A DNA stretch of 35,597 nt from a virus. A model generated the notes under the pieces. The model was given only the letters and a program-made list of their open reading frames with translations, was not told the DNA's origin and did not search any database. This document shows positions 3,464 through 28,359 of this stretch, in pieces. Numbering within the stretch: position 1 is the first letter of the stretch; every line of letters begins with the position of its first letter. Location of the stretch: positions 1 to 35,597 of IMG/VR virus record IMGVR_UViG_3300035698_001535; one strand, 5' to 3'. Position numbers and translations under genes: made by a program.

Positions 3464-4846
3464 ATGGATAAAATAACAGATTTAATCAAAGGAAGTCGAA
3501 TAGCGTTTCAACAAATGGAAAAGGATAGTTGGATTCTCAGCAGAGATATTGCTCTCGACTATCTTCATGCTAGGACAAAAAAGTACACCACAGCAGTAAA
3601 GTATTACAAAGAATTTATCAAAAAGAAAGTTCCACCTGATAATAACAATGTAACAAAAAGAGTTATAGATAGAACAAGTTTAGTTTATATGCAACCACCA
3701 TATAGAGAGATAGGCAAAGATAGTCAAAAAGAAATCAGAAAAGAGTACGAAGAACTTACTAAAGGTAAAGATGGTAGGATGCACAAAGCTGAGAAGTATA
3801 CCAATCTTTTAAACCTTATTGCTCTCCACCCTGCACCTAGAAATGGTCAGTTAGAGTATGACATTATAACAGATTTTGAACCTCACTTTGATGACGATGA
3901 CCCGATGACTCCAATAGGTATTTCGTATCCACTTCATGTAAGTTCTGAAGTTAAGAATACAGACCCTATCAAATGGGCATATTGGGATAAAGAAATTCAT
4001 GTTATTTACGATGCTGCAACCAATAAAACAATTAGTGTTGTTGATAACAAATATGACCTTCTACCATTCTTGTTTATTTTTACCGATAAACCTGAAACCT
4101 TTTTTATGGATGTAGACCCTGCTAATGATTTAGTTGATATGAATTTAGTGGTCAATGTTTTAGGAACTGATGCTACTTTAAATATGAGATACGGTGCGCA
4201 TGGTCAATACTACGGTACAGGATTTAGAGAAGAAACTAAAATTAAACTAGAAATTGGTAGTGATAAAATGTGGACATTACCTGATGGTGCTTCAGCAGGA
4301 GTGTTGAACCCTGCAGATATGTTTGATTCAATGAGTGGAGGAATCAAAGATAAAATCAGAGTAGTAACAAATAACTATCATCTACCTCAAGGATTCATTG
4401 AGGGTGATCAAGCACAGCCTGAAAGTGGTACTGCTTTGCGCATTAGGAATCAAGAATTAACTGATGAACGAATTGGTGACATAAAACGGTGGAGGTTGAT
4501 TGAAAAAGAATTATATAAAATCGAAAAGGTTATTGTCAAAGTTGAATTTAAAAAGGCTCTCCCCGACTTATTCGCAATCGACTATAGGGAGCAGGAACAG
4601 ATACTCACACCTGAAGAATCAATCGAAAAGGATGAGTGGGATTTGGCTCACAATCAAACGACTGAAGCTAAAATTCTACTTAGAGATGATCCTGATAAGT
4701 ACAAGACACTCGCAGAAGCGGAAGCTGAAATCAAGAAGAATAAAGACCAAAATGCTGTCAAGGGTGAAGAAGATAAAAGTGTTTCTGAAAGACTGTTTCC
4801 AAAGGTAGAACCTGTACCACAACCTGCACCTAAACCTGCACTATAA
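3464..4846 (+). CDS. Portal protein (SPP1 gp6-like)
   Basis: 460 aa. It should form the dodecameric portal ring at the unique capsid vertex through which DNA enters and leaves. The N-terminal region with NVTKRVIDRTSLVYMQPP, the central beta region with a conserved YDLLPFLFIFTDKPE and the later clip/stem region followed by QPESGTALRIRNQEL fit SPP1 gp6-type portals. The C-terminal tail is Pro-rich (PVPQPAPKPAL). Position after terL supports the call. Confidence 0.9.
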   Translation: MDKITDLIKGSRIAFQQMEKDSWILSRDIALDYLHARTKKYTTAVKYYKEFIKKKVPPDNNNVTKRVIDRTSLVYMQPPYREIGKDSQKEIRKEYEELTKGKDGRMHKAEKYTNLLNLIALHPAPRNGQLEYDIITDFEPHFDDDDPMTPIGISYPLHVSSEVKNTDPIKWAYWDKEIHVIYDAATNKTISVVDNKYDLLPFLFIFTDKPETFFMDVDPANDLVDMNLVVNVLGTDATLNMRYGAHGQYYGTGFREETKIKLEIGSDKMWTLPDGASAGVLNPADMFDSMSGGIKDKIRVVTNNYHLPQGFIEGDQAQPESGTALRIRNQELTDERIGDIKRWRLIEKELYKIEKVIVKVEFKKALPDLFAIDYREQEQILTPEESIEKDEWDLAHNQTTEAKILLRDDPDKYKTLAEAEAEIKKNKDQNAVKGEEDKSVSERLFPKVEPVPQPAPKPAL

Positions 4847-4970: not shown

Positions 4971-5059
4971 CAAAAATGACCTACAATGGAAATACCTTGA
5001 GCCACAAAAGGGATAATATGCTAGTTAAAACCGTCATTAATGGGATAATATCGAGTTAA
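4967..5059 (+). CDS. Small ORF coupled to gpF-like gene, 30 aa
   Basis: A 30-residue basic/polar peptide starting MTKMTYNGNTLSHKRDN. It overlaps the preceding small ORF by ATGA and the following minor capsid gene by TAATG. Its best-supported role is translational coupling across an otherwise empty 212-bp gap; whether the peptide itself does anything cannot be judged. Confidence 0.4.
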   Translation: MTKMTYNGNTLSHKRDNMLVKTVINGIISS

Positions 5060-5781
5060 TGATAGATACCACCCCATTTGAAGTTGAGTTAAAACTCGTA
5101 GAAGCTAGATTCTTAGCAGAGGTTGATGGTCTTTTGAAAAGACTAGGATCTCTGTCTAAAGAGGAAAAATTAATTCTATTAAGAGAAATAGACTTCTTAG
5201 AAAGACTTAATACAAATGGGATTAATAAGGTTGTAAGTGGGATGTCAGCTTCTATGACTAAAGAAATAAAGTCATTAAGAAAACTATATTCTGCTGAGGG
5301 ATTAATCGTTACTTCAACCCTTACCCCATTGACTGCTTTAGTCCAAGAGGATTTAACCTTATTTATGAGTCAATACACAGGGTATTCTTCTGCTATTAAG
5401 CAGAATGTTATACAAGGAGTTGTAGCGGGAACACCTAATAATGTTTTAGCTAAACAACTGACTGCATTGACTGTTGGTAATCTTTCAGGTAGAGATGCAA
5501 GTTTTTTAATGGAAGAAACTTTCTCAAGATTTGATGGTGCTATTAAAGCTGATGCTTTTGCAGGTAAGGAAAAAATTGCAAGATGGGAATATGTTGGCGA
5601 TTATGATGAAAAGAATAGGGATGCGTGTAGAGCAGTTTTAGATCAAGGAGGTACTTGGACTATAGATGAAATCAATAATGGAGATGCACACCCCGGAGTA
5701 GATTTTGTTAGTCGTGGTGGATTTAACTGTAGGCACACTTGGGAGTTAGCAGACGAACAACCTGATGGAACTTATGAATAA
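5059..5781 (+). CDS. Head morphogenesis / minor capsid protein (Mu gpF-like)
   Basis: 240 aa. The C-terminal domain has the gpF/SPP1 gp7 pattern: WEYVGDYDEKNRDACRAVLDQ near residues 175-195, HPGVDF, then RGGFNCRHTW near 219-228, with the paired Cys and His typical of this putative metal-binding module. The N-terminal two thirds are helical. Proteins of this family sit next to the portal and associate with it inside the procapsid. The start is TAATG-coupled to the upstream small ORF. Confidence 0.85.
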   Translation: MIDTTPFEVELKLVEARFLAEVDGLLKRLGSLSKEEKLILLREIDFLERLNTNGINKVVSGMSASMTKEIKSLRKLYSAEGLIVTSTLTPLTALVQEDLTLFMSQYTGYSSAIKQNVIQGVVAGTPNNVLAKQLTALTVGNLSGRDASFLMEETFSRFDGAIKADAFAGKEKIARWEYVGDYDEKNRDACRAVLDQGGTWTIDEINNGDAHPGVDFVSRGGFNCRHTWELADEQPDGTYE

Positions 5782-7121: not shown

Positions 7122-8099
7122 ATGGCACAGATGACACTTCGTGCTTTGGCTGTTAAGCAAGGTTGGGCAAATGCCCCATCTATTGACTCTTTGACTGTAA
7201 AGTCGGGGTTGCTAACCGCAGGGGGAGCGATAGCTGCTTCCCATTTGTATAAGCACAAACATAAAAGACTAGACGCTTTACCTGCTCTCACATGGAGAGA
7301 TGCCGGTGGATCGCAAGGTAATGTGACCACTAATTCAAATCTGTTTGAAACACAGTTGAAGATAGTTGGTGGCTTACAATCGGAACCTGCCGATATTACT
7401 ACAGATTGGCCGGGTGGAGCAGATGCTTATTTCGCAGAACAAAAACCTTCATGGCAAGAGGCTTTCGGGCAAGCTGCTTCAGTTGGTTTAATCTACGGAA
7501 CTGACTCTACTCATGGTGATGCAAAAGCACCTGTAGGTATACATCAATACGCTGTTGCTGCAGATAACACGATACAAAATTCACAAGCAGGTGATACAGG
7601 TTCAACGACTAGTATCATAGCGATTAAATTCAGACCGGGCATTGATGGTTGTGGTATTCTTTATGATCCACAAGTAACTGCTGCGGGGAATTTAATGACT
7701 TCAGAAGTACTTAATGGCGGTAACAAAGTAGCCATGACGATAAGTACGACTGGACCAACTGCACAGCTTGTTTATCAAGTAGAACACACTGGTAAATTAG
7801 CATTTTTAACAACTTCAACAAAAGACATCGCAATCTATAATAGGATTCAAGACGCTTCAAGCGAAAGACCTACTGCTGCAAAGATGGATGAATTGATTGA
7901 TGCTGTTGAATTTGACGAGAGAACGGTTCTGTTTATGAACTCTACGACTCGTAGAATGTTAAACTTACTAAACGATTCAAAATTGAATACAACTCCAATC
8001 ACGACTGATTACTACAGTTTTCAGACTTCTTGGAATGGTGTACCAATTATGATTGATAACAATATTTTATCAACCGAAGCTAATACATTGTGGACCTAG
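7122..8099 (+). CDS. Major capsid protein (HK97-type fold expected)
   Basis: 325 aa. The N-terminal arm MAQMTLRALA is followed by a region with LPALTWRDAGGSQGN near residues 53-67, an internal Gly/Thr-rich beta region, and a C-terminal NGVPIMIDNNI with TEAN just before the end, the typical P-domain/A-domain ending of HK97-type coat proteins. It lies between scaffold and a probable decoration protein. The fold is expected from family resemblance, not shown here. Confidence 0.9.
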   Translation: MAQMTLRALAVKQGWANAPSIDSLTVKSGLLTAGGAIAASHLYKHKHKRLDALPALTWRDAGGSQGNVTTNSNLFETQLKIVGGLQSEPADITTDWPGGADAYFAEQKPSWQEAFGQAASVGLIYGTDSTHGDAKAPVGIHQYAVAADNTIQNSQAGDTGSTTSIIAIKFRPGIDGCGILYDPQVTAAGNLMTSEVLNGGNKVAMTISTTGPTAQLVYQVEHTGKLAFLTTSTKDIAIYNRIQDASSERPTAAKMDELIDAVEFDERTVLFMNSTTRRMLNLLNDSKLNTTPITTDYYSFQTSWNGVPIMIDNNILSTEANTLWT

Positions 8100-9807: not shown

Positions 9808-10710
9808 ATGAAAAAACAATGCCCCTTTTGTGATTCATTTCACACCGTTAAGAGAGGAACTCGGAATAAGAAACAGAGAGCAAAGTGTTTGGATTGTGGT
9901 AAGTGGTTCTCTATTGGTGATTCCGTTCCATCTAAAGCTAAAATTCTAATCTTTGACATCGAAACTGCTCAAATGCAGACTAAGGTGTGGAGTTTAAAAC
10001 ACAATAATTTCATTCAACCTCATAGAATAGTTAAAGACTGGTTTATGTTGTGTTGGACAGCTAAGTGGCTATACTCTAATGAGATAATGGGAGAGTGTGT
10101 TACCCCTAAAGAAGCTAAAAAAAGGGATGACAAAAGAATAGTTGCTCCAATGTGGAAACTACTTGAAGAAGCTGATATAGTAGTAGGTCACAACGTAAAG
10201 AATTTCGATTTAAGAAAGTTAAATGCTAGATTTTTAGATCATGGATTTACCTCACCACCTTTATCTTATGTTATCATAGATACCTTATTACAATCTAGGG
10301 GAACCTTTGATTACAGTTCTCATAAACTTGATTACATTACTAAATTTTTAAAGTTACCTCACAAGTTAGATACTAATATCGGTTTGTGGGATGACTGTGA
10401 AGATGGTAACCAAGAAGCCTTAGATAGAATGTTTGAATACTGTGGTAACGATGTAAAAATCAACGAAGAAGTTTATCTGTTAGAAAGAGCATGGATGAAG
10501 AATCATCCTAACATTCCTTTATACGGTGACTTAACTGAAATGAGATGTCCTTACTGTAATAGTACAAAGCTAACTCAACAAGGTCACTATGTTACTCCCA
10601 TGAACAAATATAATACTTATCGTTGTGAGTGTGGTGCTATCTCTAGGGCAAGAACTGCTAAGTTAAGTCCTGATAAAAGGAAAAATCTAATAAGGAGTGT
10701 TGCAAGATGA
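9808..10710 (+). CDS. DEDDy 3'-5' exonuclease flanked by two zinc ribbons
   Basis: 300 aa. The core is a DnaQ/RNase H-like exonuclease: Exo I FDIETA (Asp50, Glu52), Exo II VGHNVKNFD (Asp134) and Exo III Y211CGND215V, so the DEDDy class. The N-terminus is a transposase-type zinc ribbon (Cys5, Cys8, Cys27, Cys30, with QRAKCLDCGKWF). The C-terminus carries another ribbon (Cys247, Cys250, Cys273, Cys275). No polymerase domain is attached. The role could be trimming of replication or recombination ends, nucleotide salvage from host DNA, or a nuclease in an accessory system. It is coupled by ATGA to the phosphatidyltransferase. Confidence 0.85.
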   Translation: MKKQCPFCDSFHTVKRGTRNKKQRAKCLDCGKWFSIGDSVPSKAKILIFDIETAQMQTKVWSLKHNNFIQPHRIVKDWFMLCWTAKWLYSNEIMGECVTPKEAKKRDDKRIVAPMWKLLEEADIVVGHNVKNFDLRKLNARFLDHGFTSPPLSYVIIDTLLQSRGTFDYSSHKLDYITKFLKLPHKLDTNIGLWDDCEDGNQEALDRMFEYCGNDVKINEEVYLLERAWMKNHPNIPLYGDLTEMRCPYCNSTKLTQQGHYVTPMNKYNTYRCECGAISRARTAKLSPDKRKNLIRSVAR

Positions 10711-11315
10711 AAGATGTAGAACTTTACGCTAAAATTTTCAGACCAATTTCAAAACATATAACTAAAGTCTTAGTCAAAATTGGCATGACAGCCAATGAGG
10801 TAACTATCTTACAGGGTTTATTTGGAGTGGTAGGTGCTATCTTATTTGCCTATCAACAATACCTATTGGGTTGCCTATTCCTACAAATAGGATTTATCTT
10901 AGATTTATGCGATGGTGAAGTAGCAAGACACTTCGGAGAAGAGACCGTTTCCGGTGAATATTTAGATAAAATACAACATCGGATCGTGATTCCTTTATAT
11001 TTCTTTTGCTTAGGAATTGGTACAGGCCACATCATCTTTGGATTCCTTGCAGGATTATTTAGTCAGAAGTTTGTTAGCCTCAGTCAAGGTAAATCAGGTA
11101 AACAGGGAATCAAGTGGTTCTTCCTGTATCCCGGTTCTATGGTTATAATCACCATAGCATCGTTCTTTGGGGGTATAGAGGCACTAATAATGTTCTATGG
11201 AGTAACGATACCTATTGGTAGATTCGTGCAGATTTACAAGACATTTAATTCTTTTGATTCTCCCAATAAAACTACGTTAAGATTTCACAGTAGAGATGAG
11301 GTAATTGGGATATGA
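10707..11315 (+). CDS. CDP-alcohol phosphatidyltransferase-family membrane enzyme
   Basis: 202 aa with about five or six hydrophobic segments. The family motif D-x2-D-G-x2-A-R-x8-G-x3-D-x3-D is present as D66-LC-D69-G-EV-AR, G83, D87, but the final Asp, expected at 91, is His (DKIQH). Family enzymes move a phosphatidyl group from a CDP-lipid to an alcohol in the membrane, making phospholipids. The substrate cannot be predicted. Phospholipid-synthase-like genes are unusual in phages. The gene is translationally coupled to the exonuclease and followed by a tiny membrane peptide. Confidence 0.85.
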   Translation: MKDVELYAKIFRPISKHITKVLVKIGMTANEVTILQGLFGVVGAILFAYQQYLLGCLFLQIGFILDLCDGEVARHFGEETVSGEYLDKIQHRIVIPLYFFCLGIGTGHIIFGFLAGLFSQKFVSLSQGKSGKQGIKWFFLYPGSMVIITIASFFGGIEALIMFYGVTIPIGRFVQIYKTFNSFDSPNKTTLRFHSRDEVIGI

Positions 11316-22848: not shown

Positions 22849-23451
22849 ATGAAACTTCTACAATCAGATTTTAAAAAGATAAACGAAACAATGAAAACAA
22901 TAGGGGTGTCTCCACTTGGAACTGTAAAAAAGACAACTAGAAAATTCTTGATTAATCTATATAGAAGTTGTCTTATAAAGGGGAATAGTGAAATAGAGAT
23001 AGCACCTAAAGAATGGAATACTCTATATGCACCAATAAAAGATAAGATGATAAGTAAAAACATAGTTAAACAGATAGACAATGACACATATCAGATTCCG
23101 TTTGTTGATATATCCGGTAGAAAGTGGAAGTACGATACACTAAGAGATAATAGAAAAAAATGTTTTAATATGGACAAATACAAAGGTGATGGTATGGTTT
23201 ATCTTATAATCTGTCGGAACTTTGTTAAGATAGGATATACAGCAAGGAGCGTTGTTGAAAGACTAATGGGGCTACAAGTAGGATCACCATACGAACTTAG
23301 CTTGTGGGGTACTGTAGGCGATATAAACGAATCATTTGAGCATAAGTTACATCAGAGATACTCAGCATTTAGAGTAAGGGGGGAATGGTTCGAGATAGAA
23401 GTTTTATCGTATATAACTAAAGATATACCTATTGCCTATATCAGTAGATAG
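22849..23451 (+). CDS. T5orf172/MUG113-type GIY-YIG-like protein, 200 aa
   Basis: The C-terminal half (from about residue 116) matches the T5orf172 type: MVYLI, FVKIGYTARSVVERLMGLQ, GSPYELSLW, FEHKLHQRY and VRGEWFEI. This is a GIY-YIG-like nuclease fold. The N-terminal half looks like a helical DNA-recognition domain. A TATAAT lies just upstream (22831-22836), but its -35 is poor. It has its own position in front of convergent minus-strand genes, like a mobile or accessory gene. A homing or host-DNA nuclease role is inference. Confidence 0.8.
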   Translation: MKLLQSDFKKINETMKTIGVSPLGTVKKTTRKFLINLYRSCLIKGNSEIEIAPKEWNTLYAPIKDKMISKNIVKQIDNDTYQIPFVDISGRKWKYDTLRDNRKKCFNMDKYKGDGMVYLIICRNFVKIGYTARSVVERLMGLQVGSPYELSLWGTVGDINESFEHKLHQRYSAFRVRGEWFEIEVLSYITKDIPIAYISR

Positions 23452-26486: not shown

Positions 26487-26643
26487 TAGGTCAAGTTCTT
26501 ACGGAGGATTTACTTGCGAAATTTGGGCTATTTTAAATTCGGGGGAAATAGCTGAAGTAAAGGAAATTCCCGAAATTTCAAAAGACTTGGTTGAACTTGT
26601 AACAGTTGCCGGGTTAAAGAAGGAGATAAAAAATGGCGATTGA
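26449..26643 (+). CDS. Small basic protein, 64 aa
   Basis: MMKIKLKSKKKISRSSSYGG.. then a beta/acidic part (SGEIAEVKEIPEI). GAGGAG ribosome site; an ATG at 26452 is an alternative start. Overlaps the tail tube gene by 11 nt. Similar short proteins precede tail tube genes in other siphoviruses; function unknown. Confidence 0.6.
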   Translation: MMKIKLKSKKKISRSSSYGGFTCEIWAILNSGEIAEVKEIPEISKDLVELVTVAGLKKEIKNGD

Positions 26644-27646
26644 CCCACAAGTATATTCATTTAGTGACTGGCAAATGGGCGTACTGACATCTCTCACAAC
26701 AATAGGAACTGCTGCTGTTGATCCTGTCTCAGCAGTGACATTAGTAGACATAGATGGTCCTGCTACATTTACTCCGGGTACTTTTATGAGAACTGATATT
26801 CGTTCAGGTACTCCCGGACAGATAGCGGGTAATGCAGATGTTCTTACTTGTGATAAAGGTGTTTTAAACGAAGTTAGTTTTTCATGTATTTATGATACCA
26901 CTTCAGGTGCTATCATGCTACCAACATTGTTTGGTTCTTTAATAGGTACTAGTCCTGCAGGTTATGGACACGCTTATAATTGGACTTCACCTGATATGGC
27001 TCATGGTGGTACAGTAGGACTAAATATCGGAATGGACCTAACTTTAATACATCCCGAAGCTAGTAAGTCAATATCTTTAATTAGTGGAGTTTTAACTACA
27101 GGTACTATAAGCGGAGATGTTGAGGAAGATAATGGTCAGATCAAAATGAGTGCTACTTATTCTACAGGGTATAAACCTGTTTACGATCAAGGTACACCGA
27201 CAACACGAAATGTTTATGGTACGACAAAAAGATACATTACTGATGCAGATACTACTCATACAGTAGCGGGTTGTTCAAATGCGGTAATCAAATCGTTTAG
27301 TTTAACGGTTAATAACCCTGTTAAGTATCTTGGTTTTCAAGGTGCGAATGGTGATCCTGAAGCTGCAGTAAGAGGACTACCTGAAGTTGAAGTACTTTTA
27401 GATACCACAATTAAGGTTGATACTAATACAGCATCGTTACATTCTGCGTGGGCTACAAATAGTGAAGTTGCTACTGAGATTTCAGATAATGCAACTTGGG
27501 GTTCAGCTACTACATTTGGATTTAAAGGTGCTTATGGTAGAATCATAGATGTTAAGGAAAATGATGTTGGTGCAGGTTATTACGATGTAAGCCAGAAGTT
27601 TTTTGCACACACTACAGATACAGAAGTAGACGAGTTAATAATATAA
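26633..27646 (+). CDS. Major tail tube protein
   Basis: 337 aa, Thr/Gly/Ala-rich and mostly beta, with Asp-rich turns. It lies immediately before the tail chaperone pair and tape measure, the standard place for the tail tube gene in long-tailed phages. It forms stacked hexameric rings of the DNA conduit. The length is above average, suggesting an added surface domain in the C-terminal half. Confidence 0.8.
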   Translation: MAIDPQVYSFSDWQMGVLTSLTTIGTAAVDPVSAVTLVDIDGPATFTPGTFMRTDIRSGTPGQIAGNADVLTCDKGVLNEVSFSCIYDTTSGAIMLPTLFGSLIGTSPAGYGHAYNWTSPDMAHGGTVGLNIGMDLTLIHPEASKSISLISGVLTTGTISGDVEEDNGQIKMSATYSTGYKPVYDQGTPTTRNVYGTTKRYITDADTTHTVAGCSNAVIKSFSLTVNNPVKYLGFQGANGDPEAAVRGLPEVEVLLDTTIKVDTNTASLHSAWATNSEVATEISDNATWGSATTFGFKGAYGRIIDVKENDVGAGYYDVSQKFFAHTTDTEVDELII

Positions 27647-27674: not shown

Positions 27675-27697
27675 AAGTGTTTTAAAAAGGAAAATAA

Positions 27698-27967
27698 ATG
27701 AAAGTTAATGCTTTAGAAAAAGATTGGGAAGTTAAACCGGTTAATACTAAGACTCAACAGAGGTTGTATGTTTCTTTTATGAGTTGTCAATCAGATGAAC
27801 AGACAATGAAAGAGAAAGAACAAATGTATAATTTATTCTTTGAATGTATAGACCTTTCGGGTATTGAAGAATTACCTGAGTCTCTTGTAGATAAATCGGT
27901 TTTAGGTATGGCAATTCTAACTGAATATTGTGGTTTTGATAAAAAAAAATTATCAGAGCAAAAATAG
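27698..27967 (+). CDS. Tail assembly chaperone, short form (lambda gpG-like)
   Basis: 89 aa in the zero frame, ending FDKKKLSEQK. Starts after a good AAGGAAAATAA. It binds the tape measure during tail assembly. In long-tailed phages most ribosomes finish this short form, and some shift to make the longer one. The last codons span the nine-A slippery run. Confidence 0.8.
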   Translation: MKVNALEKDWEVKPVNTKTQQRLYVSFMSCQSDEQTMKEKEQMYNLFFECIDLSGIEELPESLVDKSVLGMAILTEYCGFDKKKLSEQK

Positions 27968-28359
27968 GCGGTTGGTTAGCAGTATTTCCGAAAAACGAAG
28001 TAAAGACTTTCCCTTATAATGCTTTGTCTCCATCGCTTAATAAGATGGTTACATTCAATTCGATGGATGATATTTGGGATGAAGTTTACAGACGAGTTAA
28101 AGAAGTCGAAGGTAATACCAAGTTCACTCTTGGACAAAACCTTTGGGTTGAACTTTCGCAATACTGTTCACCCAATATGCTTGTCGATGAGGAAACTATG
28201 TCTTTAGTTCAAGAAGTAATCTATTGTATGAGTTGGGATATGGCTCCCTTTTCTAATTTGGATGAAGCTGATGCTGTCAAGTTAAAGCTAATGACCTCGA
28301 TCAAAGAAGAAATACAGACAGCACAAACCTACAAGGCTAATAAAGATGGCAACAAATAA
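27698..28359 (+). CDS. Tail assembly chaperone, long form by -1 frameshift (lambda gpGT-like)
   Basis: Reading through the AAA AAA AAA run (27941-27949) with one base repeated joins the first 84 codons to an open -1 frame (IIRAKIGGWLAVFPKNEV..) running to 28359, giving about 220 aa. The -1 frame has no own start until an ATG at 28045 without a clear ribosome site, and its end overlaps the tape measure start. This is the classical G/GT arrangement; the fused C-terminal domain would contact tape measure and tail tube. Confidence 0.85.
27941..27950 (+). promoter_or_regulatory. Slippery sequence for -1 frameshift
   Basis: Nine A then T (27941-27950); contains the heptamer A-AAA-AAA in the correct phase. 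No strong pseudoknot is evident by eye downstream. Polymerase slippage on the A-run could give the same product. Confidence 0.8.

Follow-up and report, generated by a model that had tools for sequence, protein, structure and literature searches.

Which product is made from the short stretch between the tail tube-like gene and the tape measure gene of this uncultured phage, two short proteins as reported by ORF calling or one gene that is read in two frames? The sequence analysed here, called the window, is the whole stretch of 35,597 nucleotides (IMGVR_UViG_3300035698_001535, positions 1 to 35,597), and all positions refer to it. Our analysis indicates that positions 27698-28359 are very probably a G/GT-type tail assembly chaperone gene in which a -1 slip leads to a 220-aa G-T fusion. 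The original prediction of a -1 frameshift joining a tail chaperone pair is supported by 42 further distinct sites, by the gene order and by T homology that starts at the slip site.

Two reading frames probably joined at a run of nine A's

The G-like ORF starts with ATG and ends with GGT TTT GAT AAA AAA AAA TTA TCA GAG CAA AAA TAG, so that the A9, the longest homopolymer anywhere in the window, occupies its codons 82-84 in phase (Table 1). The slip site A_AAA_AAA is located near the end of G and is followed by five sense codons and the stop. After a -1 slip, the next codon is ATT (27949-27951) and the -1 frame extends without a stop from the A run to the TAA at 28357-28359. The ATG of the tape measure protein (TMP) gene at 28346 is thus located inside the T ORF, with an overlap of 14 nt, and the predicted length of the G-T fusion is 220 aa. 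Since a TAA is present in the -1 frame directly upstream of the A run, the shift is only possible inside the run. ORF calling splits the locus into the 89-aa ORF and a TTG-started ORF of 111 aa at 28024, thereby missing the fusion and removing 25 codons from the beginning of the -1 domain. All this agrees with what had been predicted: a nine-A run in the phase of an 89-codon ORF, a -1 frame open as far as the tape measure start, a fused protein of about 220 aa and a fusion overlooked by ORF calling.

Table 1. Features of the G/T locus and its neighbours in the window.
Feature	Position	Strand	Basis
Upstream ORF, 337 aa, probable tail tube / major tail protein	26633..27646	+	homology in relatives (phmmer)
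AAGGA, Shine-Dalgarno-like, 6 nt 5' of G start	27687..27691	+	read in sequence
G-like ORF (0 frame), 89 aa, predicted tail assembly chaperone	27698..27967	+	ORF and homologous G ORFs
-1-frame TAA immediately 5' of A run	27940..27942	+	sequence; shared by about 28 of 43 distinct loci
Slippery heptamer A_AAA_AAA inside A9 (27941-27949)	27943..27949	+	sole in-frame X_XXY_YYZ of G ORF
T-like domain, -1 frame (ATT ATC AGA ... TAA), 136 codons	27949..28359	+	open frame, homology, Ka/Ks
Candidate 3' stimulatory stem, 27954-27960 paired with 28020-28026	27954..28026	+	RNA folding, weak
Tape measure protein (TMP), 713 aa	28346..30487	+	PHROG 27166

A chance origin of the long -1 frame is excluded. Dinucleotide shuffling of 27949-28356 was repeated 20,000 times, and the frame was interrupted in every case. 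In addition, a scan for in-frame X_XXY_YYZ heptamers in 32 window ORFs (7,932 codons) yielded 47 slippery heptamers, and behind 46 of these the -1 frame is stopped after at most 32 codons. The A_AAA_AAA at 27943-27949 is the only one that opens a long -1 frame (136 codons, with 32 as the next best).

Conservation of the arrangement in relatives

Neither the 220-aa fusion, used as query against viral contigs and 50,697 phage records, nor the probable tail tube protein, used against viral contigs, found a match. Relatives were reached via the TMP: a search with this protein led to L001, and an alignment of both TMPs to 38 loci, the closest of which show 46-52% identity over about 200-220 aa. A scan of genome contigs added a single locus, L049, which covers the same range as L018. 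For L012, L013, L015 and L019, the T domain could be aligned with that of the window at about 30%, and searching IMG/VR with these domains identified 59 loci, 43 of them distinct at the slip region. One of these, L096, ends before the slip site and was left out, resulting in 42 relatives and, together with the window, 43 distinct sites.

The arrangement is the same in all of them. The slip site is A_AAA_AAG in 40 of the 43 distinct sites and A_AAA_AAA in three (the window, L070 and L107). In a typical relative it reads NNT AAA AAA AAG, followed by 0-1 codons and a stop (five codons in L101-L105), and the 0-frame stop is found 0-5 codons past the heptamer in all 42 untruncated relatives. Complete 0-frame G genes encode 86-95 aa, and the -1 frame encodes 134-143 aa in the 42 relatives and overlaps a long downstream ORF. 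Identity to the window proteins is 18-32% for G and, over the full length and for 22 relatives, 24-35% for T.

The neighbouring genes are conserved as well. In every locus, the last 7-49 nt of T overlap with the long downstream ORF, and phmmer detects a similarity of this ORF to the window TMP in 37 of the 43 other rows. The window TMP itself matches PHROG 27166, tail length tape measure protein (1.7e-8). Upstream, an ORF of 328-416 aa is present wherever the contig extends far enough, and 30 of these ORFs match the 337-aa ORF of the window (phmmer). The latter has no significant family match of its own; the upstream ORF of L050 matches PHROG 290 (tail, 'minor tail protein', 3e-8), as does the ORF in the same position of the more distant L001 (5e-40). 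Thus, according to PHROG 27166 and the tail-family homology in the relatives, G and T are located directly between a tail tube-like gene and the TMP gene.

In many distant TMP relatives, too, a slippery site lies in phase within a 0-frame ORF just upstream of the TMP, and a -1 ORF terminates close to where the TMP begins, among them L001, L017, L018, L020, L023, L025, L034, L035, L038 and L040-L045; their G and T are mostly unalignable with those of the window. In five further distant relatives (L026-L029 and L046), the -1 ORF in the same place seems to be preceded by T_TTT_TTT and not by an A run. In L014 the canonical heptamer is absent, and in L021 and L022 no T was found.

Variation of the slip site itself was also observed. 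In about 28 of the 43 distinct loci, T is the last base of the codon preceding the A run, which places a -1-frame TAA just upstream of the slip site; ribosomes that have shifted too early may be terminated at this stop codon. Run lengths vary: A9 is also found in L070 and A10 in L001, and the shortest site of the family is present in L090 (around 3996-4010, AAT GTA AAA AAG TAA), which has six A's followed by G.

Probable slippage mechanism and alternative readings

Most ribosomes would synthesise the 89-aa G and terminate at 27967. A minority would move one base back on A_AAA_AAA and proceed in the -1 frame, resulting in the 220-aa G-T fusion, whose stop codon lies just inside the tape measure gene. 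We consider ribosomal -1 slippage the likeliest mechanism and regard it as probable. Throughout the family it is the ribosomal heptamer that persists, including the A6G of L090, and in E. coli A_AAA_AAG is slipperier than A_AAA_AAA and other such heptamers (PMC5009743). Furthermore, strong hairpins were found a few nucleotides downstream of the site in L084 (-24 kcal/mol, z -6.7), L063 (z -5.1) and L093 (z -5.0), and additional 3' hairpins in L069, L080, L081, L085 and L092 have z values of about -5 to -6. With A_AAA_AAG, a close 0-frame stop and often a 3' hairpin, the relatives resemble the E. coli dnaX cassette, which differs in gene and purpose; in addition, the window family has no clear Shine-Dalgarno stimulator upstream, since the search for such a sequence 5' of the slip site gave no consistent result. 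In the window, a candidate stem 4 nt downstream of the slip site has a folding energy of -18.4 kcal/mol with a z of -2.2, 4 of 200 shuffles being equally good; as this 80-nt fold was picked among several lengths tried, it is a weak indication.

The hairpins at L063:4008-4040, L084:4008-4070 and L093:4008-4070 differ between subgroups, and a hairpin common to the whole family was not seen. A comparison of L084 with L081 by eye revealed one double change from A-U to G-C in the inner hairpin.

The same fusion could be generated without a ribosomal shift if RNA polymerase slipped on the A9 and added an extra A, since an mRNA with 10 A's would be read into the -1 frame. On nine A's or T's, bacterial RNA polymerase slips efficiently in vivo (PMC5009743), so the run in the window is long enough, as in the known cases of transcriptional slippage in Thermus dnaX and Shigella spa13 (PMC5009743), and L070 (A9) and L001 (A10) likewise contain long runs. 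The window also lacks the A_AAA_AAG form of its relatives. Because of the A9, the missing trailing G and the modest fold, polymerase slippage is a live reading for the window. The family as a whole argues against it: most relatives have A8G, several have hairpins at the spacing of ribosomal stimulators, and in L090 just the ribosomal heptamer was kept. This A6G is below the run lengths known for transcriptional slippage, yet it is a canonical ribosomal site. Altogether we regard polymerase slippage as unlikely. It might also be that the family uses ribosomal slippage on A_AAA_AAG with lineage-specific hairpins, and that the lineage of the window has shifted partly or wholly to transcriptional slippage, a scenario that we consider quite unlikely. 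The natural series of A6G, A8G, A9 and A10 sites, with and without hairpins, allows a comparison of ribosomal and transcriptional slippage, for which L090 is a useful natural control against the latter.

We also looked at whether T could be a separate gene, started on its own at TTG 28024, where the ORF caller reports its 111-aa ORF, or by coupled re-initiation. In the alignment of 23 T domains, homology begins at the KK of the slip site and covers the segment before any start codon, including the W11, FPY and SP motifs, and the first ATG, GTG or TTG of the T frame in the relatives can be located anywhere from codon 3 to codon 89. T is under purifying selection: for its first 28 codons, Ka/Ks was below 1 in 10 of 10 pairs of relatives (range 0 to 0.54; seven pairs below 0.2), and for the remaining T and for G it was below 1 wherever computable. 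Homology and selection thus extend to codons upstream of 28024, a position that is not preceded by a Shine-Dalgarno-like sequence. Since both begin at the slip site and the first possible start varies, a conserved independent start of T, named beforehand as the observation that would speak against a fusion, is excluded. Two separate genes are accordingly a very improbable reading. The least probable one is an error of sequencing or assembly, to which homopolymers are prone, the A9 being the longest of the window, concealing either an uninterrupted ORF (A10) or a pseudogene; this is very unlikely because the arrangement is conserved in the relatives, 42 other distinct sites keeping two frames, usually with the 0-frame stop right behind, and most having A8G, which is less subject to length errors.

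A predicted chaperone family without a named relative

The precedent for such a gene is gpG/gpGT of lambda (Levin 1993; Xu, Hendrix and Duda 2004, 2013, 2014, as cited in PMC5009743). Both systems have the order major tail protein, G, T in the -1 frame and tape measure, a slippery heptamer shortly before G ends, and a T that has no start of its own and ends at the tape measure gene. They differ in the slip site, which is A_AAA_AAA (A9) in the window and A_AAA_AAG in the relatives, and in sequence, as the window family has no detectable similarity to named chaperone families. They also differ in size, the window having a smaller G (89 aa) and a fusion of 220 aa. The lambda GT is longer than 220 aa. 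The proposed likeness to lambda G/GT consequently holds for the layout but not for the length of the fusion. By analogy with lambda, G would bind to the TMP, and recruitment of the tail tube subunit would be the task of the T part.

The original prediction suggested comparing the -1 product with GT proteins; no convincing sequence similarity to named tail chaperones was seen. Neither G nor T convincingly matched a named chaperone family in Pfam or PHROGs, and G and T of single relatives had no match in the 50,697 phage records. When 23 members each of G and T were scanned against Pfam and PHROGs, only scattered weak matches were obtained, one member of the T alignment matching PHROG 9001 'tail assembly chaperone' weakly (0.011). 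No match to G was present among PDB sequences. The structural model of G (pLDDT 72) consists of two strands followed by helices, and its fold weakly matches viral proteins (E about 0.5), some of which are annotated as tail assembly chaperone; the model of T (pLDDT 55) is too poor for a fold search. Fold searches with G gave nothing convincing, the best VIA Z being 4.9, to a PICI protein whose function is unknown.

That the gene encodes a tail assembly chaperone is therefore concluded from its position and from the conserved -1 arrangement. Since neither half convincingly matches Pfam, PHROGs or phage records, this is an unnamed sequence family with a known job. New are the sequence family, which adds a tail chaperone family without a named relative in the libraries searched, and the range of slip-site variants; the kind of gene is well known and the general picture is unchanged. 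Gene callers will split or truncate such chaperone genes, and the shared heptamer together with the adjoining tape measure gene provides a simple annotation rule for uncultured viruses.

Matches were also obtained for some other parts of the window. The ORF at 10707-11315 (+ strand, 202 aa) matches CDP-alcohol phosphatidyltransferase (Pfam PF01066, 7e-11) and contains the motif DLCDGEVAR-x8-G-EYL-D-KIQ-H, in which the last usual D is H. Judged from its sequence, it would encode an enzyme of the phospholipid-synthesis type in a phage; it had no match in the phage collection. Two weak matches below the Pfam cut-off were found at 5059-5781 (Mu F-like protein, 3e-5) and 7122-8099 (GP7-type major capsid protein, 9e-4). 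Shortly upstream of the late tail genes, the ORF at 22849-23451 contains a T5orf172/MUG113 domain (Pfam PF13455, 6e-9).
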